This document shows positions 31,368 through 44,341 of a stretch of 64,000 nucleotides of DNA, in pieces (positions within the stretch are counted from its first letter, which is position 1; each line of letters starts with the position of its first letter). The notes under the pieces were generated by a model. It saw nothing but the letters and a program-made list of their open reading frames with translations, was not told the origin of the DNA and made no database searches. A program made the position numbers and the translations under genes. Source of the stretch: Aliarcobacter lanthieri (GTDB taxonomy: Bacteria; Campylobacterota; Campylobacteria; Campylobacterales; Arcobacteraceae). Location: NCBI RefSeq assembly GCF_013201625.1, contig NZ_CP053839.1, forward strand, positions 930,001-994,000. The letters run 5' to 3'.

Positions 31368-31451
31368 TGGTACCGTTGGTCGGACTCGAACCGACACTCC
31401 AGTGGAATACGATTTTGAATCATACGCGTCTACCAATTCCGTCACAGAGCC
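31368..31451 (-). pseudogene. tRNA-Leu(CAA)-like sequence with a broken acceptor stem
   Basis: 84 nt, 78 identical to the tRNA-Leu at 44258-44341, including the anticodon loop TTCAAAA (anticodon CAA) and the T arm. The 5' acceptor strand GGCTCTG faces CAACGGT, leaving three mismatched pairs and a G-T. G10 of the D stem is A, and the anticodon stem (TATGA/TCGTA) has one G-T. It is therefore probably not a working tRNA. An automated search may still call it tRNA-Leu. It forms the left boundary of the island. Confidence 0.7.
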
Positions 31452-31491
31452 ATTTATTTTTAATAAAATATTTTAAAAGTAAGTTGTTTAC
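31368..31491. repeat. Left direct repeat (tRNA-Leu plus 5' flank)
   Basis: Similarity to 44258-44384 continues about 40 bp past the tRNA 5' end (CATTT, T/A-rich, AAGTTRTKTAC). The repeat therefore includes the leader of the tRNA gene, and the two copies lie in the same orientation about 12.9 kb apart. Confidence 0.65.
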
Positions 31492-31923: not shown

Positions 31924-33117
31924 ATGAAGATTTTACATACATCAGACTGGCATCTTGGTCAAAACTTTATGGGAAAAAGTAGGGTAGATGAGCATGAAGC
32001 TTTTCTCTCTTGGCTTTTAAAAATAATAGAAGAAAAACAAATTGAAATATTGCTAGTGTCTGGAGATATTTTTGATACTGGAACTCCACCAAATTATGCT
32101 TTAGAACTTTATTATAATTTTTTAAAAGAACTATCAAATATCAAATCATTAATCACTACTATTATAACTGCTGGAAATCATGATTCAGTATCAACTCTAA
32201 AAGCACCAAAACAACTTTTAGAAGTTTTAAATGTTCATGTTATAACAACTGGTGATGAAGATGAAAATGTAATTATTCCTATATATAAAAATAATGATTT
32301 AATATCTATTGTTTGTGCTGTTCCATTTTTAAGAGATAGTGTTATTAGACAATCTCTTAGTGGAATAACAATAAGAGAAAAAGAGAAACTAGCAAATAGT
32401 GGAATTAAAGCTTATTATGAAAACTGCTACAAAAAAGCACTTGAATTAAAACAAGATAAGAATATACCAATAATTGGAATGGGACACTTAACAACAGTTG
32501 GAAGTAGAAGTTCTCAAAGTGAAAGAGATATTTATATTGGTGGAACTATTGATATTGGTGGAGATTACTTAGCTTCTATGTTTGATTATGTTGTTTTAGG
32601 ACATCTTCATATAAATCAAGTTGTTGGAAATAATGAACATGTTAGATATTCAGGTTCTCCAATACCTCTTAGTTTTTCTGAATCAAAAAACAGTCAAAAA
32701 GTAAATCTTGTATCTTTTACTCAAAATGAAATGAGTATAGAAGAAATAGAAGTTCCGCTTTATAGAAAACTACTTGTCATTAAAGGTAATTATGAAACTA
32801 TAAAAAATGAACTTACTAAAATTGAAGATAAAAACTCTTGGATAGAAGTTCATATATCTGATGATAATGCGATGTATGCAAATAATGAAATCAGACAACT
32901 TGCTTCAAAACTTGAACTAATACTGCTTGCTGTAAAAATAGACAAAAGTGAAAAGCAATTAAAAGCTAATGAATTAAAGGTAATAAGTTTAGATGAATTG
33001 TCAGTTGAACAAGTATTTGAAAAGAGATTAGAACTTGAAAAGTTAGAATATAAAGAGTTTGAAAAAGAACTACTTTTAAACTTTAAAGAAGTAGTTTCTA
33101 AGGTGCAAAGCCTATGA
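31924..33117 (+). CDS. sbcD: Exonuclease SbcD (Mre11-like)
   Basis: A 397-residue metallophosphoesterase nuclease. Metal-binding motifs in order are HTSDWHLGQ (D8, H10), VSGDIFDTGTP, TAGNHDS, GHLTTVG and LGHLHINQ. A C-terminal capping region of about 120 residues follows. With SbcC it degrades DNA hairpins and double-strand ends. It is the first gene of the island's plus-strand run and overlaps sbcC by 4 bp. Confidence 0.94.
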   Translation: MKILHTSDWHLGQNFMGKSRVDEHEAFLSWLLKIIEEKQIEILLVSGDIFDTGTPPNYALELYYNFLKELSNIKSLITTIITAGNHDSVSTLKAPKQLLEVLNVHVITTGDEDENVIIPIYKNNDLISIVCAVPFLRDSVIRQSLSGITIREKEKLANSGIKAYYENCYKKALELKQDKNIPIIGMGHLTTVGSRSSQSERDIYIGGTIDIGGDYLASMFDYVVLGHLHINQVVGNNEHVRYSGSPIPLSFSESKNSQKVNLVSFTQNEMSIEEIEVPLYRKLLVIKGNYETIKNELTKIEDKNSWIEVHISDDNAMYANNEIRQLASKLELILLAVKIDKSEKQLKANELKVISLDELSVEQVFEKRLELEKLEYKEFEKELLLNFKEVVSKVQSL

Positions 33118-36100
33118 AAATCCTAAAAATAAAATCATTAAATATTAACTCATTAAAAGGTGAGTTTGAAGTTGACTTTGAAAAGTTTTTAAAAGATGAA
33201 TCATTATTTGCTATTACTGGACCAACGGGTGCTGGGAAAAGTACAATTTTAGATGTAATTACTTGTGCTTTATATGGAAGAACTGCAAGATTATCAAATC
33301 CAAATGAACTTATGAGTAGACACACAGGGGAATGTCTATGTGAAGTAGAATTTGAAGTAAAAGGAAAAGTTTACAGAAGTTCTTGGAGTCAAAAAAGAGC
33401 TAGAAAAAGTCCTGATGGAGCATTCCAAAGTGCTAAAATGGAAGTTAGTGAATTAGAATCTGGAAAAGTTTTAGAATCATATCTTTCAAAAGTTCCAAAA
33501 TATATAGAAGAGTTATCTGGACTTGATTTTGATAGGTTTATTCAATCTATGATGTTGGCTCAAGGAAGTTTTGATGCTTTTTTAAAGGCACGTGAAAATG
33601 AGCGTTCAAGTTTACTAGAAAAGATTACTGGAACACAAATATATAAGCAAATATCACAAGAAATATATCAAACTTATATTAGAAAAAATGATGAGATAAA
33701 ATTAGATGAAAATTTATTAGGAAATATTGAATTATTATCAAGTGAAATAATTGAAGAAAAGACTTCAATTTTAAATAATTCAAAAGTTCAAAAACTTGAA
33801 TTTGATTCTAAAGGAAATGAGCTAAAGAAAGTAATTAATTGGCTTGAAAATTTACAAAAGGTAGAAGCTGATAATACTAAGTATATACAAGAGTTTGAAC
33901 AAATTACTATTGAAAAAGAGAATAAAAAAGAAGATTTTATCAGATTAGATTTAGCAAATAAAGCTTTAAATGTTCAGACAATTTATCAAGAAAAAAATTC
34001 TTTAACTCAAATAATAAATCAAGATAAAGAAAAGCTAGAAAAACTTCAAAAAGAGTTAGAAAATTTAAAACAACTCTTACAATCAACAACTAATGAATCA
34101 TTAAAAGTAAAAGATGAATTAGATAAAGAAAAAATCTCATTTGATATGAACTCTAAAAAACTTAAAGAAGTAAGAACACTACAAACTAAAATTGAATCAA
34201 AACTTCAAAATATTAAAGAGTTAGAAAATAAAATAAGCTCTCAAAATGAACAAAAAATAAAACTAACTGAAGACTTAAATGTACTAAAAACAAATCAAGA
34301 GAAGATTGATAATGAGTTAAAAATTATAAATGATTATCTAATTAAAAATAAAAATTATGAATCATTAAAAGAAGAGATATCTTTAATCTCAAAAAATGTA
34401 AATGATTATAAAGATGTAATAAAACTTTTAAAACAAATAGAAGAAAAACTTCAAAATAACAGTTTAGATGAAAAGATTTTACAAGATAGTTTTAGTAAGG
34501 CAAAAAAAGAGTTTCATGAAATAAAAGTACTGTTTGATTCTAAAGATAAAGAGTATAAAGAGTTAGACCTTCAAACTTCAAATTTCAATCAAATAGAAGT
34601 AAATAATAGGGATAGATTAAAGAGTATTGAAAAATTAATCACTTCGATAGATGAATATAAAAGATTGATAAACAGTATTTCAAAAGAAAAAAATATCATA
34701 TCTTCTTCAAAAGATGAATCAAAAACTATAAAAACAAATATAGAAGAAAAATCAAAACTAATAAATGAAATACAAACACATATACAAACTCTAAATGACA
34801 AAAGAGAAGTAGAACTTTTAATAGCAAAATATGAAAGTGACAGAGTAAATCTAAAAGAAGGCGAAGAGTGTTTCTTATGTGGTTCAAAAGAACATCCATT
34901 TGTAGATCATAAAATAAGTGTAAATGCTGATGAAACAACTTCAATAATCGCTCAAAAGAAGCAAATATTTGATGAAGAAAATAAAGCTTTACGAACTATT
35001 GAATTAAACTTATCAAAACTTGAAACTAAAATAGATACATCTACTTTAGAACTAAATAAATTATTAAAAAATAAAGAAGATATAGAACAAGTATTTAGTT
35101 CATTGAATTTCATTTTAACAGATGATTCTAAAACAAACTTAGAAGAAGAAAAGCAACTTTTAGAAGAAGAGTTACAAAACATAATAAAAATTAGAGATAA
35201 AAAAGAAAAAGTTCTAACTCAAAGGGATAATCTTCAAAAAGAGTTAAATACTAAACAAACTTTTGTTTCTCAAAATGAACAAGAACTTTATAAACTAAAA
35301 AGTTCAATAGATCAATTACAAAATGAACAAACTCAAAACATATCTAAAAAGCAAACTTTAGAGGAAGAACTTTCAAAAGTATATAGTAAATATGAACTCA
35401 TATTTGATGAAAAGTTTGAAGAAAATTTTAGAATTTTAGTTGTAAGAAAAGATAGTTTTATTAAAAATGAAACATCGAAAAAAGAGCTTGATATAAAACT
35501 TCAAGGCTTAATAGTACAACTAAAGGAGTTTGATACAAAAATCATATCAATAGAGTCAAGTCTAAAAACAGATATTGAACAACTCTCTAAAATTTCTAAT
35601 GAAACAAAAGAATTACAAATTCAAAGTAAAGCTATTTTAGATGTATCTGATTTAAATATTTTTGAAAAAGAGATAACAAGTAAATTTAACACTATCAATG
35701 AAAAATATAACTCTTTATTAAAAGAGTTAGTAAATCTAAATTCAAAAGATGAATCACTAAATACTCAAATAAATGAGTTAAATCAAAAACAAATCAATGA
35801 TAATACAAAACTAGAAGAAACAAAACAAAAATTTAATAAAGCTCTTGTAGAAAATAGTTTTACTTCAAAAGAAGAGTTTGAAAAAGCACTTTTACCAAAA
35901 GAGTTAAGAGAAGAGTTATCTTTTGTGTGTAAAGCTCTTGAAGAAAAATATACTCAAATCCAAACTCTAAAAATAGACACAGCAAAAAAACTATCTGAAC
36001 AAAAAGAGTTAAACCTAACAGATAAAGAACTTCAAACTTTAAATGATGAATTAAAAGAGTTACAAACTATTATTGATGAACTTCAAAAATCAATAGGAAG

Positions 36101-36695
36101 TTTAGAAAAAGAGCTTGAAATTAATGCAATAAACAATAAAAAACATGAAGATAAAATCAAAGAGTTAGAAAAGAAAAAAGAAGCCTTTAAAGTATGGATA
36201 AAACTAAATGAAATGATAGGTTCAGCAAGTGGAGATAAATTTGCCAAATTTGCCCAAGGTATTACACTAGACCAACTTATCTATCTAGCAAATAAACATC
36301 TACAAATATTAAGTCCAAGATATGAACTTCAAAGAAGTAGTGATTCAAGTAAGCTATTAGAAATAGAAATAATTGATGGTTTTCAAGGCGATGTAGTAAG
36401 ACCTGTAAGTACGCTTTCAGGTGGTGAAAGCTTCATAGTAAGTCTTTCTCTTGCACTTGGACTTTCAGCACTTGCAAGTCAAAAAATAAGTATAGATTCA
36501 CTTTTTTTAGATGAAGGATTTGGAACACTTGATAGTGATAGTTTAGAGTTAGCACTAAATGCACTAAATCAGTTACAAAGTTCAGGGAAAATCGTAGGTG
36601 TGATTTCCCATGTGGAAGCACTAAAAGAGAGAATTCCATTGCAAATTAGGGTGATGCCTAAGGGTGATGGGACGAGTGTTTTAAATTTAAATTAG
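33114..36695 (+). CDS. sbcC: Exonuclease SbcC (Rad50-like ATPase)
   Basis: An 1193-residue SMC-like protein. Walker A GPTGAGKST is at residues 36-44, with long coiled coils on each side of the zinc hook CFLC (C586, C589). The C-terminal ATPase half has LSGGESFIVSLSLALGLS and the Walker B SLFLDEGFGTLD. It forms the tethering and ATP-driven partner of SbcD. The next gene starts 10 bp after its stop, so the SbcCD pair may be co-expressed with the downstream nucleases. Confidence 0.94.
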   Translation: MKILKIKSLNINSLKGEFEVDFEKFLKDESLFAITGPTGAGKSTILDVITCALYGRTARLSNPNELMSRHTGECLCEVEFEVKGKVYRSSWSQKRARKSPDGAFQSAKMEVSELESGKVLESYLSKVPKYIEELSGLDFDRFIQSMMLAQGSFDAFLKARENERSSLLEKITGTQIYKQISQEIYQTYIRKNDEIKLDENLLGNIELLSSEIIEEKTSILNNSKVQKLEFDSKGNELKKVINWLENLQKVEADNTKYIQEFEQITIEKENKKEDFIRLDLANKALNVQTIYQEKNSLTQIINQDKEKLEKLQKELENLKQLLQSTTNESLKVKDELDKEKISFDMNSKKLKEVRTLQTKIESKLQNIKELENKISSQNEQKIKLTEDLNVLKTNQEKIDNELKIINDYLIKNKNYESLKEEISLISKNVNDYKDVIKLLKQIEEKLQNNSLDEKILQDSFSKAKKEFHEIKVLFDSKDKEYKELDLQTSNFNQIEVNNRDRLKSIEKLITSIDEYKRLINSISKEKNIISSSKDESKTIKTNIEEKSKLINEIQTHIQTLNDKREVELLIAKYESDRVNLKEGEECFLCGSKEHPFVDHKISVNADETTSIIAQKKQIFDEENKALRTIELNLSKLETKIDTSTLELNKLLKNKEDIEQVFSSLNFILTDDSKTNLEEEKQLLEEELQNIIKIRDKKEKVLTQRDNLQKELNTKQTFVSQNEQELYKLKSSIDQLQNEQTQNISKKQTLEEELSKVYSKYELIFDEKFEENFRILVVRKDSFIKNETSKKELDIKLQGLIVQLKEFDTKIISIESSLKTDIEQLSKISNETKELQIQSKAILDVSDLNIFEKEITSKFNTINEKYNSLLKELVNLNSKDESLNTQINELNQKQINDNTKLEETKQKFNKALVENSFTSKEEFEKALLPKELREELSFVCKALEEKYTQIQTLKIDTAKKLSEQKELNLTDKELQTLNDELKELQTIIDELQKSIGSLEKELEINAINNKKHEDKIKELEKKKEAFKVWIKLNEMIGSASGDKFAKFAQGITLDQLIYLANKHLQILSPRYELQRSSDSSKLLEIEIIDGFQGDVVRPVSTLSGGESFIVSLSLALGLSALASQKISIDSLFLDEGFGTLDSDSLELALNALNQLQSSGKIVGVISHVEALKERIPLQIRVMPKGDGTSVLNLN

Positions 36696-36705
36696 AAAGG
36701 TTTTT

Positions 36706-38820
36706 ATGATATTTAAAAATATTAAGGTTGAAAATTTTAAAGGATTAAAAGATATATCTTCTCCATTATCTAAATTTACTTGTATAATTGGAGAGAATAA
36801 TGCTGGAAAATCAACTTTTATTCAAGCTCTTTTACTTTTTATAAAAGGAACTAAATTAACAAAAGAAGATTTTTTTGATACTTCAAAAGATATCCTTATC
36901 TCTGTAGAAATTGATAATATTAGAGAAAAAGACTTAGAGCTAATTGATGAAACTCATAGAGAAAAATTTAAAAGCAATATTTTATTTGATGCAGATGGAA
37001 AAGGTTCTATTAAATTAGCTAGAAGATACTCAAAAACTGATTATAGTTCTAAATTAAGGAATATAAAGTTTATTCCTAAAGACAAACGGTTTAATAAAAG
37101 TGATATTGATGAATTATTAAAAGGTAAAAAAGGTAATGAGATACCTATAGTTCTCGCTAAAAACTATCCAGAATTAGATGAAGAAAAAATTTTAAATGTT
37201 AAAACATTAACAAAAGCTAAAGAATTGATAAATAACTATATATCAACTCTCAATGATGATGAAATGGAAGAAAAAGATATCTCTTTAGATACTGGAATTA
37301 ATAATTCTATCACTTCATTTTTTCCTGAACCTATTTACATTCCAGCTGTAAAAGATTTATCAGATGATATGAAAACTAAAGATAGTGCATCATTTGGAAA
37401 ATTATTAAATATTCTTTTAGATGTTATTGAAGATGATTTAAGTGAAGCAAAAGGAGTATTTGATGAACTGAGAAAAAAACTTAGTAAAACATATGATAAA
37501 GAAGGAAATTTAAACCCTGATAATAGATTAGAAAAAGTTAAACAAATTGAAGAGACTATACAAAAGAATTTAAATCAAACATTTAAAAATGTTTCTATAG
37601 ATTTAGAAGTTCCACCACCAGAAATTAAATCAATTTTATCTAATGCAAATATTATTGCAAATGATGGAGTAATAGGACCTATTCAGAATAAAGGTGATGG
37701 GTTTAAAAGAGCAATTACATTTAGTATATTAAGAAGTTATGTAGAACTAGCTAATTCTGAAGATTGGCAAAAGGATAAAGATAATTTTAAAGAAAAAGAT
37801 AGGTTCTTATTTTTATTTGAAGAACCAGAATTATATTTACATCCTAAGGCTCAGAATATCCTTTTTGAAGCATTATCTAAAATTTCAAATGACCATCAGA
37901 TGATTGTTTCAACACATTCTCCACTTTTCTTTTCTTCTGACGAAACAAAAACATTTATAAAGATAAAAAAGATAGATGATGCAGTTAAATCATATTCAAA
38001 AGTTTCTCATATTGATTTAACTGATATGAGTAAGAAAGATCAGTTTCAATTAATTTCTTTTGAAACAAGTAATCATGCCTTCTTTTCTGATAAAGTAGTT
38101 TTAGTTGAAGGAGATACTGAATTAATTGTTTTACCTCATATTTCAAAAACACTTAACAGTAAGTATGATTTTAAAAACAATTCAATAAGTTTGGTAAAAA
38201 TAAATGGAAAAGGTAGTTTTAAGAGATATAAAGATTTCTTCAAAAAATTTGACTTAAATATTTATTTTGTAGCAGATCTTGACGTGTTACTAGATGGTTT
38301 TGAGAAATTAGAACCAAGTGAAGAAATAAAAAAAATTCATAGTGATTTATTATCTCTTATAAATGAAAAAGTTTCTAATGTAGAGATTCAACCTTTAGCC
38401 ACAAGAAAATATAAAGATAAATTATCAAAGAGTATTAGTAAAAGTATTTATGAACAAATAAAAGATGCTAGAAGTATAGATGATAAAGAAAAAGTTTTGG
38501 AATTACTTGATGAATTATTTTCTTTTGAACAAAAAAAAGCTGAGCTATTAGTTTTACAAGATAAAAAAAATGAATTCCAAGATGTAGTTTCAAAAAAAAG
38601 AGAACTGTTAAAGCTTCTCAGAAAAAACAATATCTTTGTGTTAGAAGCAGGAGATATAGAGTCTTACTATCCCAAAGAAATAGCTCGTGATGATAAGCCT
38701 ACTCAAGGACAAAATTATTGTGAACTAATTGATTCAAAAGAAAAACTTTTCAAAGAATACTCTATAATAGATGAAGATAAAATTGAATTTGAATTAATAT
38801 TTGAACAAATATTTGCATAG
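36706..38820 (+). CDS. OLD-family ATPase/TOPRIM nuclease
   Basis: A 704-residue protein. The N-terminal ABC/SMC-like ATPase has Walker A GENNAGKST at residues 29-37, a signature-like GDGFKRAITFS near 330, Walker B LFLFEEPELYLHP near 370 and a switch region IVSTHSP. The C-terminal TOPRIM domain has VVLVEGDTELIVLP near 465 and YFVADLDVLLDG near 520. OLD proteins are nucleases of phage defence and retrons; GajA of Gabija is one. The expected GajB helicase is missing; a PD-(D/E)XK protein follows after 9 bp instead. Confidence 0.85.
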   Translation: MIFKNIKVENFKGLKDISSPLSKFTCIIGENNAGKSTFIQALLLFIKGTKLTKEDFFDTSKDILISVEIDNIREKDLELIDETHREKFKSNILFDADGKGSIKLARRYSKTDYSSKLRNIKFIPKDKRFNKSDIDELLKGKKGNEIPIVLAKNYPELDEEKILNVKTLTKAKELINNYISTLNDDEMEEKDISLDTGINNSITSFFPEPIYIPAVKDLSDDMKTKDSASFGKLLNILLDVIEDDLSEAKGVFDELRKKLSKTYDKEGNLNPDNRLEKVKQIEETIQKNLNQTFKNVSIDLEVPPPEIKSILSNANIIANDGVIGPIQNKGDGFKRAITFSILRSYVELANSEDWQKDKDNFKEKDRFLFLFEEPELYLHPKAQNILFEALSKISNDHQMIVSTHSPLFFSSDETKTFIKIKKIDDAVKSYSKVSHIDLTDMSKKDQFQLISFETSNHAFFSDKVVLVEGDTELIVLPHISKTLNSKYDFKNNSISLVKINGKGSFKRYKDFFKKFDLNIYFVADLDVLLDGFEKLEPSEEIKKIHSDLLSLINEKVSNVEIQPLATRKYKDKLSKSISKSIYEQIKDARSIDDKEKVLELLDELFSFEQKKAELLVLQDKKNEFQDVVSKKRELLKLLRKNNIFVLEAGDIESYYPKEIARDDKPTQGQNYCELIDSKEKLFKEYSIIDEDKIEFELIFEQIFA

Positions 38821-38829
38821 GATACTAAA

Positions 38830-39906
38830 ATGAAAAAAAGTCAAATGAGAGGTTATTTATATGAAATTTTTGTTTCACACCTTTTGCAAAAAAATGGTTT
38901 CCTAAAATGTACTCAAGGATCTCAACAATTTATTGATATGGGAATAATATCTAATGATGGTGAAATTGTAGGTCGTGGTACTCAACATCAAATTGATTTT
39001 ATAGGTTTATATACTAGAAATATTCCTTTTGTATTTCCTATTAGATTACTAGGAGAATGTAAGTTTTGGGAAAAAAAAGTCGATAAATCATTTATAAGAC
39101 AGTATATTGGTATACATAAGGATATTTCAGAAAACTATATCTCTTCTATGAGAGGGACAACAAATAGGTTTTTAGATATACCTGTTATTTTTTCAGCAAG
39201 TGACTTTGATAAAGAAGCAGTAAATTTAGCTTGGGCACAAGGTATTAATTTAGTTTCTCATTCTAGGTTACCAATATTAAAAAATATAATCGAAGTAATT
39301 AAGATAATTGTAGAAACTTTATATGATCATTATGATTATCAACCAATAAAAAGATTTGTAGAAAGATTTCTTAATGAAGAAGATATTGAAATTAGTGAAA
39401 CTTATTTAGATTTTATAACTAGATTTATTGAATATTTAAATAATAATTTGACTATCTTTGATGTTGAGGATTTTGTAGATTCATTAAGTAGGTTACAGGA
39501 TAGCAGAATCAATACATTTTTATTTGCAACGAATGAGAAAGGAATTTTAATTAATTTAATTAGTGAAGATACATTCCCAAATAAAGATGATGATTTTGAC
39601 GTAGATTTTTTTGAAACAAATTCAGAAGATTGTATGATATATTTTGATGATGAGAATAGTGATGAAAATGGAGAAAGGGTATTTTATATTACTTTAAATA
39701 GAGACCCCTCTCAAAGAAAATTTTATTTTCAAGCAAATAATGCTTTATTGAGTAAAGATTTTCCACAATTGTCTTTAAAGGATAGAATGGAAAGAAAATT
39801 AGAATATTTCTCTGAACTTTCAATAATTAAAGAAGTAAATGGTTTGACAAGAATAATAAAATTAAATGTTAATCTTGAAACAGTTATGCATAATAATGTA
39901 AGATAA
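38830..39906 (+). CDS. Mrr-like PD-(D/E)XK nuclease domain protein
   Basis: A 358-residue protein whose first 130 residues form a restriction-endonuclease-like fold: QIDFIG with D56, then a strand LLGECKFW with E76 and K78, then a conserved helix. This D-x19-E-x-K pattern is that of Mrr/REase-type nucleases. Residues 140-358 are unfamiliar, with acidic stretches (NKDDDFDVDFFE). The product probably cuts DNA; its target is unknown. It is tightly placed between the OLD gene (9-bp gap) and the HNH gene (16-bp gap), suggesting one complex or pathway. Confidence 0.7.
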   Translation: MKKSQMRGYLYEIFVSHLLQKNGFLKCTQGSQQFIDMGIISNDGEIVGRGTQHQIDFIGLYTRNIPFVFPIRLLGECKFWEKKVDKSFIRQYIGIHKDISENYISSMRGTTNRFLDIPVIFSASDFDKEAVNLAWAQGINLVSHSRLPILKNIIEVIKIIVETLYDHYDYQPIKRFVERFLNEEDIEISETYLDFITRFIEYLNNNLTIFDVEDFVDSLSRLQDSRINTFLFATNEKGILINLISEDTFPNKDDDFDVDFFETNSEDCMIYFDDENSDENGERVFYITLNRDPSQRKFYFQANNALLSKDFPQLSLKDRMERKLEYFSELSIIKEVNGLTRIIKLNVNLETVMHNNVR

Positions 39907-39922
39907 TTATCTAAGGACATAT

Positions 39923-41122
39923 ATGAGTAATAATATATTATTTGAAAATTTTATTAAATATGGTATTGATGAAGATTTATCAAAAAAATTAGTAGATTTG
40001 GATTTGACAGTTTCTAAATGTAAAGCGTTATCCCAAAATGATTTAAAAAATAAGTACAAACTAAATGAAAATGAAATATCTATAGTAAAAACTTCTACAA
40101 AAAGACAACCAATTGATAAAAAAGTTGTTGATACACTATTAAAAAATAGCAATTATATATGTAATGTATGTAAAGGTGAAAAAAGTCATAGCTTTATAAT
40201 TCATCATATTGAGGAGTATGAAAAATCACAAGATAACTCATATAATAATTTAATAGTACTATGTCCTTCTGATCATGATCTTGCTCATAAACAAGGTGTT
40301 TCTTTAACAAATAAGATTTCAAAATCACAATTAAGAAAACTAAAAACTGAGTGGGAAGAAGAAGTTAGAAAAAAGAACGAAATAAAAGCAAGTGAGAATA
40401 TTAATATCAGAGATGAAGTAGTAGATTTTGTTAATATTCAAAGGTTAGAAGAATTAGTTTTATTAACTTTTAAAAGAATACCAGATACTTATGTAACTCC
40501 TTCTTTAAAAAATAAAAAAATTTTGAATAATGATGGTTTTTTTGATGAAGAATATGTAAGAAAAAATCTTTCATCTTCTCCTATGTTATTTAGTTATATC
40601 AACGCAGGGGAAGGTATTCATTATTTAGAGTTATTAAGGAAAATAGTGAAGAAAAAGAATTTTATTGATATAAGAAGTTTTTTTAAAATACGTTCAATAA
40701 ATAAAAAACAGATAAATGGTCAATATGTTTTTTTTACAGGAGGTTTTTATAGCCGTTCTGTAGGATTACCTTTAAAAGGCAATGAACCATTAGTTGTTTT
40801 TCATTATAAAAAGCAAAATATTAGAATTGAATGTAAAATTGATTCACAATATGCTCTATCTCAATCAGCGTTGGGAAGATTGGGGGTAAAAACAGTTTAT
40901 TCTATTTATGGTGTAGTCAAAAATACATTTAAAGATAAAGATAATATTTGGGTAATATCTATCAGTCCTTATATAATTGGATTTCCTGAAGAATATTCTC
41001 GTATAAGTCCATTTTATTCTAATTATGAATTTGATGAAGAACCATTTTTTGAAGATATTGTATTAGAAAACTCAAGTTTTGATATTGATGAATGGCTTCA
41101 AGAAATTAAAGAAAATTCTTAA
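39923..41122 (+). CDS. HNH endonuclease domain protein
   Basis: A 399-residue protein. The HNH core at about residues 78-123 has C80 and C83 (CNVC), H94-H95, N109 and C114 with H118 and H122 (CPSDHDLAH), so zinc knuckle and catalytic residues are present. The N-terminal 60 residues look helical, and the C-terminal 230 residues are not recognised; they contain a beta-rich stretch (FTGGFYSRSVGLPLKGNEPLVVF). It probably nicks or cleaves nucleic acid. Its location after the OLD and PD-(D/E)XK genes suggests a defence module. Confidence 0.7.
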   Translation: MSNNILFENFIKYGIDEDLSKKLVDLDLTVSKCKALSQNDLKNKYKLNENEISIVKTSTKRQPIDKKVVDTLLKNSNYICNVCKGEKSHSFIIHHIEEYEKSQDNSYNNLIVLCPSDHDLAHKQGVSLTNKISKSQLRKLKTEWEEEVRKKNEIKASENINIRDEVVDFVNIQRLEELVLLTFKRIPDTYVTPSLKNKKILNNDGFFDEEYVRKNLSSSPMLFSYINAGEGIHYLELLRKIVKKKNFIDIRSFFKIRSINKKQINGQYVFFTGGFYSRSVGLPLKGNEPLVVFHYKKQNIRIECKIDSQYALSQSALGRLGVKTVYSIYGVVKNTFKDKDNIWVISISPYIIGFPEEYSRISPFYSNYEFDEEPFFEDIVLENSSFDIDEWLQEIKENS

Positions 41123-41129
41123 GTTAATT

Positions 41130-42605
41130 ATGAACCTCTCTAAATCCCTCTACACAAAAGGCATCCAATGCCCAAAAGCACTTTGGCTTAAAAAGTATAA
41201 GCCAAGTGTACTAACACCACCAGATGAATCGGCTCTTGTAGTATTTGAAACTGGAAATATAGTAGGAGATTTTGCTTGTCAACTTTTCCCTCATGGAAAA
41301 GAAGTGCCATATTCAAAAAACTATGATGAGATGATAGCTACTACAAAACAGTGGCTTGATGATGGAGTGGAAAATATCTATGAAGCTACATTTAACTTTT
41401 CAGGCATTTTAATTATGGTAGATATTTTAACTATTCAAAATGATGAAGTATCTATTTATGAAGTTAAAAGTTCTACAGAGGTAAAAGATATATATTTGCA
41501 TGATGTATCTATCCAGTATTATGTACTTAAAAACTTGGGTTTTAAAGTAAAAAGTGCAAATGTAATTCATATAAATAATGAATACATAAGAGGTGATGAG
41601 CTAGATATACATCAACTTTTTAAAATAGTTGATGTTACAAATGAAGTTATATCAATGCAATCAAATATTCCAAATATTTTAAAAGAGTTTGAAATATATT
41701 TAGAAGATAAAGAGAATGAACCAAATATTGATATAGGTAAACATTGTAATAATCCCTATGAATGTGATGCAAAAGAGTACTGTTGGAAAGTTCAAAGACA
41801 AATACCTGATTATTCTATATTTAATATTTTCAATCTTGGAAGTAAAAAACAAATAGAACTATATAATAGAGGTATTATAAATATAGATGATATTCCACAC
41901 AATTTTGATATGACTTCTATTCAAGCACAAGCTGTTGAAAACTATAAATCAAAAATTACATATATAGATATAGAAAATATCAAATCATTTTTACAAAACC
42001 TAACTTATCCGATATATCATTTAGACTTTGAAACATATCAACAAGCAATTCCAAAATACAAAGGTTTAAAACCATTTGAACAAATACCATTTCAATACTC
42101 ACTTCATATTGAGCATGAAGATGGAAGACTTGAACACAAAGAGTATTTAGCTCAAGATAGTGTTGATAGTAGATATGAACTTGCTCTTAGACTTTGTGAA
42201 GATATCCCAAGTAATGTTACAGTATTAGCATATAACATGAGTTTTGAAAAAGGTGTAATAAAAAGATTAGTAACACTATTTGAAGAGTTTAGTGAACATC
42301 TTTTAAGTATAAATGAAAATATGCAAGATTTGATGATACCTTTTCAAAAGAAATGGTATGTAAGACCATCTATGAATGGAAGTTATTCTATAAAGTACGT
42401 TTTACCAGCACTTGTTCCAGAATTTGAAAAAGCTTATAAAGAACTAGATGGAGTTCAAAATGGAAGCCAAGCTATGAATGCATTTGCAAAACTTAGTTTA
42501 CTTGATAATGAAGAAAAACAAAAACTTAGAAACTCACTTTTGGAGTATTGTAAACTTGATACTTTGGCTATGGTAAAGATCTTAGAAAAATTAAAAGCTA
42601 ATTAA
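41130..42605 (+). CDS. DUF2779 protein: Cas4-like nuclease plus DnaQ-like domain
   Basis: 491 residues from the ATG at 41130; an in-frame ATG 51 bp upstream lies inside the HNH gene and is rejected. The N-terminal part resembles Cas4/RecB nucleases: C14 in IQCPKALWL, VDIL ... IYEVKSST as the D/ExK site, and a distal cysteine group (CNNPYECDAKEYC, about 204-217) for an Fe-S cluster. The C-terminal DUF2779 part has YHLDFETYQ near residue 300, like DEDD exonucleases. Such proteins are widespread and poorly characterised; DNA end processing is likely. Confidence 0.72.
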   Translation: MNLSKSLYTKGIQCPKALWLKKYKPSVLTPPDESALVVFETGNIVGDFACQLFPHGKEVPYSKNYDEMIATTKQWLDDGVENIYEATFNFSGILIMVDILTIQNDEVSIYEVKSSTEVKDIYLHDVSIQYYVLKNLGFKVKSANVIHINNEYIRGDELDIHQLFKIVDVTNEVISMQSNIPNILKEFEIYLEDKENEPNIDIGKHCNNPYECDAKEYCWKVQRQIPDYSIFNIFNLGSKKQIELYNRGIINIDDIPHNFDMTSIQAQAVENYKSKITYIDIENIKSFLQNLTYPIYHLDFETYQQAIPKYKGLKPFEQIPFQYSLHIEHEDGRLEHKEYLAQDSVDSRYELALRLCEDIPSNVTVLAYNMSFEKGVIKRLVTLFEEFSEHLLSINENMQDLMIPFQKKWYVRPSMNGSYSIKYVLPALVPEFEKAYKELDGVQNGSQAMNAFAKLSLLDNEEKQKLRNSLLEYCKLDTLAMVKILEKLKAN

Positions 42606-42658: not shown

Positions 42659-43270
42659 ATGAAACTCTATAATATGGTATTTTATTTTATATCTGGACAT
42701 GGAAAGGGGTGGGCTTTTTCATCTGTTGATTTAATAAAAAAATTTGATAGACAACAAATAGACAATATTTTATCAGATTTAACAAAAGATAAAAAAATTA
42801 GAAGAGTAGCAAGAGGAATATATGATTATCCAAAATATAGTGAGTTTTTAAAAAAAGAGTTAAATCCTGATATAGATGAAGTAGCTCGTGCATATGCTAG
42901 AAAATTTAATTGGAAAATAGAAGTTTCAGGAGATACTGCTTTAAATATATTAGATTTATCTACTCAAATTCAAGCAAAATATATATATCTTAGTAATGGG
43001 GTAAATAGAAGTTACAAATTGTTTAATAATATGGAAATAGAGTTTAAAAAAGCTCCTTTAAAAGATATAGGTTTTAAATATAAAGAGAGTTCTTTGATTG
43101 TTCAATCTTTAAAAACTTTAGGCAAAGAGCATATTACAAATGAAATAATAGAAAAAATAAGAAATCAAATTGATTTTAAAATGTATGATAAAATTTTAAA
43201 TGATACAAAAACTTCAACGGTTTGGATATATGAAGCAATAAAACAAATATGTAAAGATAATAAAAAATGA
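42659..43270 (+). CDS. AbiEi-like antitoxin (DUF6088)
   Basis: A 203-residue protein with an N-terminal winged-helix (AFSSVDLIKKF ... QIDNILSDLTKDKKIRRVARGIYDYPKYS) and a C-terminal domain, typical of AbiEi/DUF6088 antitoxins of type IV toxin-antitoxin systems. It should bind its own promoter; a 53-bp gap before it can hold one. Its last 4 bp overlap the AbiEii toxin gene. Confidence 0.82.
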   Translation: MKLYNMVFYFISGHGKGWAFSSVDLIKKFDRQQIDNILSDLTKDKKIRRVARGIYDYPKYSEFLKKELNPDIDEVARAYARKFNWKIEVSGDTALNILDLSTQIQAKYIYLSNGVNRSYKLFNNMEIEFKKAPLKDIGFKYKESSLIVQSLKTLGKEHITNEIIEKIRNQIDFKMYDKILNDTKTSTVWIYEAIKQICKDNKK

Positions 43271-44163
43271 ATAATATAGCAAATTTAACTAAACAAAAAA
43301 GAGCTGAACTTTTTAGTGAAACAGCAACTTTGATGAAAACAACAAATGCTATTGTTGAAAAAGATTTTTGGGTTGTTTGGACTTTAGATAAAATATTTAG
43401 TGATGATAGATTAAATAAAATATTAATGTTCAAAGGTGGAACAAGCCTTTCAAAAGTATTTAATCTTATAGGAAGATTTTCAGAAGATATAGATTTAATT
43501 TTAGATTGGAGATTAGTATCAAAAGAAAATCCATTAGATGAACAAGAATCAAAGAATAAACAAACTAGGTTTAATGAACAAATAAATGAAAATGCAAAAA
43601 TTTACATAAAAGATATATTGTTACCAATAATTTCACAAAATTTATCTCCATTATGCAGTTGTAATATATCTGAAGATGAATTCTCAATAAATGTTAATTA
43701 CCCAAATGCTTTTGATGATACTTATTTAAGGCCTGAAATCTTGCTTGAAATTGGACCTTTAGCTTCTTGGTTACCAAGTGATAGTTTTGAAATATCATCT
43801 TTTGCTGCGATTAAATTTCCACAAGTTTTTGAAAAGCCAACTTGTAATATAAATACAATAGTTGCTAAAAGAACATTTTGGGAAAAAGCAACTATATTAC
43901 ATCATGAAGCTAATAGACCAGTTGATTCTACAATACCTATAAGATATTCAAGACACTATTATGATTTAGCAATGATGGCTCAAAATAAAGTTAAAGATGA
44001 AGCATTAAATGATTTAGATTTGTTAACAAATGTTGTTGAGTTTAAACAAAAATTTTATCCAAGAAATTGGGCGAAATATGAAGAAGCAAAAAAAGGAACA
44101 TTTAAACTTTTACCTCCAAAATTTAGACTTGATACTTTGGAAAAAGATTATAAGGCTATATGA
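43267..44163 (+). CDS. AbiEii/AbiGii nucleotidyltransferase toxin
   Basis: A 298-residue nucleotidyltransferase. The signature FKGGTSLSK (residues 56-63) and FSEDIDLIL with the DxD pair D74/D76 give the metal site. IVEKDFWVVWTL near residue 30 is another family block. AbiEii-type toxins transfer nucleotides, in known cases to tRNA ends, and arrest growth during phage infection. It is the last gene before the right-hand tRNA-Leu, which by chance or selection may be a relevant target. Confidence 0.87.
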   Translation: MNNIANLTKQKRAELFSETATLMKTTNAIVEKDFWVVWTLDKIFSDDRLNKILMFKGGTSLSKVFNLIGRFSEDIDLILDWRLVSKENPLDEQESKNKQTRFNEQINENAKIYIKDILLPIISQNLSPLCSCNISEDEFSINVNYPNAFDDTYLRPEILLEIGPLASWLPSDSFEISSFAAIKFPQVFEKPTCNINTIVAKRTFWEKATILHHEANRPVDSTIPIRYSRHYYDLAMMAQNKVKDEALNDLDLLTNVVEFKQKFYPRNWAKYEEAKKGTFKLLPPKFRLDTLEKDYKAI

Positions 44164-44257: not shown

Positions 44258-44341
44258 TGGTAGCCCTGGTCGGAATCGAACCGACACTCCAGTGGAATAC
44301 GATTTTGAATCGTACGCGTCTACCAATTCCGCCACAGAGCC
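44258..44341 (-). tRNA. tRNA-Leu(CAA)
   Basis: 84 nt with CCA encoded. The acceptor GGCTCTG pairs with CAGGGCT (two G-T pairs), the D arm contains GGAATTGGTAGAC, and the anticodon stem TACGA/TCGTA is perfect around loop TTCAAAA (anticodon CAA, reads UUG). There is a short type II variable arm, and the T stem GTCGG/CCGAC surrounds TTCGATT. This copy looks functional and marks the right end of the island. Confidence 0.9.

Follow-up and report, generated by a model that had tools for sequence, protein, structure and literature searches.

The window, by which we mean the whole stretch of 64,000 nucleotides that was analyzed, contains an island of approximately 13 kb between two copies of a tRNA-Leu gene. 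The order of the island genes is sbcD, sbcC, OLD, Mrr, HNH, DUF2779 and AbiEi/AbiEii (Table 1). The OLD, Mrr-like and HNH genes, with which the original prediction was concerned, are indeed three open reading frames on the same strand, separated by gaps of 9 bp (OLD/Mrr) and 16 bp (Mrr/HNH). The prediction that these genes form one unit agrees with this close spacing, but not where its boundaries are concerned: the trio sits inside a longer same-strand run that it neither starts nor finishes, with sbcC ending 10 bp before OLD and DUF2779 beginning 7 bp after HNH, and an operon limited to the trio was rejected because of these close neighbors. The sole terminator-like site found on the + strand from sbcD through AbiEii falls inside AbiEii, and the run of island genes is probably co-transcribed. 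No integrase was seen among the island genes, and Pfam and PADLOC identified no helicase among the genes between sbcD and tRNA-Leu.

Table 1. Genes and boundary features of the island (positions in the window).
Feature	Position	Strand	Remarks
tRNA-Leu, degenerate second copy	31370..31453	-	Left island boundary; aligned with the intact copy
sbcD, Mre11-like nuclease subunit	31924..33117	+	First chassis gene; NCBIfam sbcd 6.6e-68
sbcC, Rad50-like	33114..36695	+	Left edge of slot 1; NCBIfam SbcC 8e-158
OLD ATPase/TOPRIM nuclease, class-1-like	36706..38820	+	704 aa; slot 1 cargo
Mrr-like PD-(D/E)XK nuclease	38830..39906	+	358 aa; slot 1 cargo
HNH nuclease	39923..41122	+	399 aa; slot 1 cargo; C-terminal ~230 residues unrecognized
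DUF2779 protein	41130..42605	+	Right edge of slot 1; Pfam DUF2779 5.8e-46; ATG at 41130
AbiEi antitoxin-like	42659..43270	+	Slot 2 cargo; PADLOC AbiEi 3.3e-57
AbiEii toxin-like nucleotidyltransferase	43267..44163	+	Slot 2 cargo; PADLOC AbiEii 1.9e-94
tRNA-Leu(caa), intact	44258..44341	-	Right island boundary; ARAGORN

ARAGORN calls the right tRNA-Leu copy only. Both copies are present in the same arrangement in A. vitoriensis, and five genomes of the same genus (G022, G024, G011, G015, and G008) possess a single tRNA-Leu and lack an island of this kind at the site. The tRNA-Leu/HU/rsmH region differs among other members of the genus. In the rsmH neighborhood of G012 (L189:11051-15884), open reading frames resembling Cas9, Cas1 and Cas2 were noted, by sequence reading only.

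The OLD protein combines an ABC ATPase (Pfam AAA_15, 8.9e-39) with an OLD-like TOPRIM domain (1.1e-19). The residues of the Walker A, Walker B and TOPRIM motifs, said to be intact in the original prediction, are invariant in an alignment of seven sequences, including G29, N31, N32, G34, K35, and S36 of Walker A, FEEPE at 371-375, H404 (H-loop), and E468/G469 and D524-x-D526 of TOPRIM. The catalytic residues of both domains are present, as in class 1 OLD proteins. PADLOC matched the protein to Old at 7.7e-94 (best GajA match, 2.3e-42), and its best PDB match is the class 1 protein TsOLD (6p74, 2.8e-17). The Mrr-like protein has the predicted catalytic core of PD-(D/E)XK nucleases (D56-x19-E76-x-K78), which is invariant in nine homologs together with GRG and HQ; its match to Pfam Mrr_cat (E 0.0094, 16.5 bits) is below the cut-off of 21. 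The third protein contains a complete HNH core (Pfam HNH, 4.4e-07), as had been proposed, with C80, C83, H94, H95, N109, C114, H118, and H122 invariant in five homologs, including the C-x2-C zinc-ligand residues. AlphaFold modeling of the HNH protein without an alignment gave a pLDDT of 32. PADLOC holds no well-fitting model for the Mrr-like or the HNH protein, the latter matching CBASS effectors only weakly, and sequence searches of the PDB with either query returned nothing usable.

Class 1 OLD proteins (P2 Old, T. scotoductus OLD) likewise consist of an ATPase and a TOPRIM domain with intact motifs, likewise have no adjacent UvrD/PcrA/Rep-like helicase, and provide the best matches, Old and TsOLD. 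They are, however, described as encoded by single genes away from defense genes (PMC10568477), whereas the OLD gene of the window sits among nuclease genes and AbiE, so that we call it class-1-like by sequence and not by context. According to published work, class 1 OLDs are nucleases that digest DNA starting at 5′ ends, and P2 Old is lethal to recBC cells (PMC10568477); the class 1 protein YbjD of E. coli gives anti-phage phenotypes upon induced expression (PMC13261556). Gabija (GajA + GajB) shares the OLD-type ATPase/TOPRIM protein and occupies the same slot elsewhere, but needs the GajB helicase. For the trio it was rejected, in agreement with the original prediction: the UvrD helicase partner is absent here, the genes next to OLD encode the Mrr-like and HNH proteins, and OLD is closer to the Old model. 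Elsewhere in the genome of the window (L170:8949-12694; G000:C1:278949-282694), a gene for a 685-aa OLD protein is followed by one for a UvrD-like helicase, a Gabija-like pair. The HNH effectors of Septu and CBASS stand beside a PtuA ATPase or a CD-NTase, and the operon has neither; both systems were rejected, as PADLOC identified no cyclase in the operon and gave Old, not PtuA, as the best match of the ATPase. The original prediction had likewise set Septu aside. A retron was also rejected, since no reverse transcriptase is present among the identified genes.

The neighborhoods of sbcC, sbcD and DUF2779 relatives were collected and the sbcC-to-DUF2779 intervals were counted by script. The recurring order is sbcD-sbcC-[variable]-DUF2779, in many cases accompanied by another variable slot and by dgt. 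The flanks are retained and the cargo is unrelated in 32 sbcC-DUF2779 intervals from Campylobacterales, in five of which SbcC is divergent and shorter (about 21–29% identity). Together these intervals hold 93 cargo proteins of at least 100 aa, in 61 families; the cargo of some loci is the same (L038 and L121). Between loci, similarity breaks off at the stop codon of sbcC and restarts at the DUF2779 start. According to PADLOC, Pfam or the annotation of the records, the cargo includes Lamassu/ABC-3C, Qat, Gabija, SIR2-HerA, Ppl, MkoA, PDC-S06, PDC-S46, Old, and GmrSD. Gabija pairs fill slot 1 in L079/L137 and L084/L148, and CBASS lies between an sbcD remnant and DUF2779 in L075. PADLOC matches (E ≤ 1e-6) were obtained for 26 of 28 slot proteins and for none of 10 proteins outside the slots, which we take as a strong hint and not as a rate, since the slot proteins were hand-picked (mostly larger ones, with many AAA models cross-matching, and four of them CBASS proteins that follow an sbcD remnant where sbcC is missing). 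The two slot proteins that PADLOC did not match are a 954-aa ATPase of plasmid pM830MA and an Mrr homolog (L139). The former, an ATP-binding protein, is the only occupant of its slot (L122:9150-12014) and is a candidate for a new single-gene system. In the second slot of another locus (L096:10800-11633), a prokaryotic viperin (PADLOC pVip, 1.1e-87) is encoded directly behind a truncated DUF2779 gene. Copies of the chassis are also found on plasmids, DUF2779 occurs without sbcCD nearby in L124 and L126, and the distribution of sbcC within the genus is patchy.

The island of A. vitoriensis occupies the same site as that of the window and carries different slot 1 cargo. In an identity profile of the two (150-bp bins), the sbcD arm, from 31520 through sbcD, is 93–100% identical, and the AbiE arm, from 42480 through AbiE, 97–100%. 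The values are 84–95% for most of sbcC (one bin at 80%, one at 97%), 87–95% for DUF2779 before 42480, and 86–96% for the chromosome past the tRNA (one bin at 100%). This pattern is as expected if homologous recombination had replaced the segment that starts where sbcD meets sbcC and extends through DUF2779, bringing new cargo, and we infer that recombination caused the identity tracts.

We consider it probable that OLD-Mrr-HNH is the current payload of an exchangeable defense slot, whose contents are swapped through recombination within the genes on either side. The conserved chassis, which consists of DNA-end nucleases (sbcD-sbcC ... DUF2779), would travel on Arcobacteraceae plasmids and chromosomal islands, and sbcC and DUF2779 would act as homology arms, at which homologous recombination replaces the payload. 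After such an exchange within the flanking genes, the incoming genes would again lie tightly packed on the same strand. The payload would attack incoming DNA as separable nucleases, their substrates and autonomy likewise being presumed. Its OLD member would be of the same type as P2 Old and TsOLD, a nuclease that acts at DNA ends and is coupled to an ATPase; the Mrr-like protein and the HNH protein, which appear to have been exchanged here as a pair, would be restriction-type endonucleases. A point against this reading is that SbcCD also has a housekeeping role in DNA repair, so that its presence beside the cargo may be incidental.

That SbcCD and DUF2779 are kept as the cargo changes could also mean that the chassis itself is the immune core, with SbcCD and the DUF2779 exonuclease processing foreign DNA ends and the payload depending on both. 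DUF2779 bears a Cas4/PD-(D/E)XK-like N-terminus and an RNase H-like domain of the 3′-5′ exonuclease type, a domain reading that follows PMC3985635, which assigns DUF2779 to the RNase H folds of the 3′-5′ exonuclease type and reports its association with a PD-(D/E)XK-like domain. OLD biology is moreover linked to end-processing complexes (PMC10568477, PMC12407980), and Gabija is licensed by the absence of RecBCD on DNA (PMC12407980). We nevertheless regard an immune core of this kind as unlikely, as some of the cargo (SIR2-HerA, CBASS) has no obvious need for DNA-end processing and DUF2779 can lack nearby sbcCD (the two loci named above). Moreover, Qat and Gabija are known to work elsewhere unlinked to SbcCD. 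It seems equally doubtful that the SbcCD-DUF2779 module forms the unchanging, functional core of a plug-in immune operon, processing foreign DNA ends for the payload or protecting the host from it, with payloads exchanged across genera when the constant genes recombine.

Only one other genome (G453), of a different genus, carries an intact OLD-Mrr-HNH block, in the same slot, with amino-acid identities to the window of 79.5% (OLD), 95.0% (Mrr), and 95.0% (HNH). The dS values between these two genomes are 1.18 for sbcD, 1.30 for sbcC, 0.84 for OLD and 0.91 for DUF2779, and 0.22 for Mrr and 0.13 for HNH, so that OLD is about as diverged as the chassis and Mrr and HNH far less. The divergence switches near 38690 (OLD codon ~660) and 41220 (just inside DUF2779). 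From its lower dS, the Mrr-HNH stretch appears to have been exchanged more recently than OLD, although the two dS classes might instead stem from gene conversion in a trio that is older, and not from a fresh acquisition. Independent occurrence of the second gene, which the original prediction had named as evidence against itself, was found for Mrr, whose homologs lie beside an OLD gene in two genomes (window and G453) and without OLD in seven cases (L139, L180-L184, and L016). These are located directly behind sbcC with a different neighbor (L139), among unrelated genes (L180-L182 and L184), clustered with other large genes (L183), and, from a plasmid search, on a Priestia plasmid (L016). In slot 1, OLD is the only occupant in L097 and has different partners in L133, L164, and L165; outside slot 1 it occurs alone in L167, L168, L127, and L128, the lone cases including full-length homologs in Streptomyces and Burkholderia. 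A near-full-length HNH homolog stands alone in G453 (L163). The HNH protein gave, besides the window, weak partial matches only in 397 genomes of the class and no match in phage records; peptide patterns of the Mrr-like protein identified no relatives in genome contigs, nor did any of the three proteins in viral contigs.

A dedicated three-component anti-phage system, with OLD as a sensor of DNA ends or nucleotides that licenses the two nucleases, would account for the small gaps, for the unchanged order of the trio in another genus, and for the restriction of close OLD (about 80%) and HNH (95%) homologs within the family to G453. The differing divergence histories of OLD and Mrr-HNH, the slot OLD genes that are alone or otherwise partnered, the Mrr homologs without OLD and the lone HNH homolog argue against it, and we find it improbable. 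The original prediction of a new anti-phage or anti-plasmid system thus stands as far as a defense role is concerned, the trio being very probably defense cargo, but not as one dedicated system of an ATPase sensor and two nucleases. Staying together elsewhere likewise applies to the trio as a block in the second genus and not to Mrr, which is mostly without OLD; a stack of separable nucleases would be the more likely arrangement. Ordinary gene crowding, that is, a defense island without a special exchange mechanism, is very unlikely, for although clustering of defense genes near tRNAs is seen in many genomes and the genus is variable at tRNA-Leu/HU/rsmH, the junctions are gene-precise, the flanks are retained on several replicons, and the identity profiles shift inside sbcD-sbcC and DUF2779.

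With the exchangeable slot as the preferred reading, the cargo-swapping SbcCD-DUF2779 chassis is more interesting than the trio itself. We would rate the slot as a fresh case of a known theme, defense hotspots between conserved genes. The hotspots of P2/P4 phages, the P2 old locus included, similarly hold variable defense genes at a fixed position between conserved flanks (PMC9122126), but here an Mre11-Rad50-type complex and the DUF2779 nuclease form the flanks, and the slot lies on plasmids and islands in Campylobacterales. The tRNases PrrC and RloC at type I restriction loci are likewise accessory defense genes linked to a DNA-acting system (PMC2610378); the chassis here, however, is SbcCD-DUF2779 instead of restriction-modification, and its cargo is far more diverse. 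Plasmid pM830MA carries SbcCD, DUF2779 and a dGTPase according to PMC6690266, and the available parts of this paper and of PMC3985635 do not describe a cargo slot. Literature searches for SbcCD together with defense terms yielded no account of one, which is not proof of novelty. The slot would offer a compact, testable example of how immune systems change, with two conserved nuclease genes as homology arms, and could serve as a discovery tool: occupants that PADLOC does not match, among them the 954-aa pM830MA ATPase and the Mrr-like protein, are promising as new defense genes.

Two further observations concern copies of the chassis. On plasmid pCNAC48 (L119:14645-22594), the second slot is closely followed by genes for macrolide resistance, namely ere(B), msr(D), and mef(A). 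The genome of the window contains a second, truncated sbcD (L146:4307-8141; G000:C1:1174307-1178141; residues 1–169, 89% identity), which is followed by two more cargo-like genes and appears to represent a decayed second chassis.
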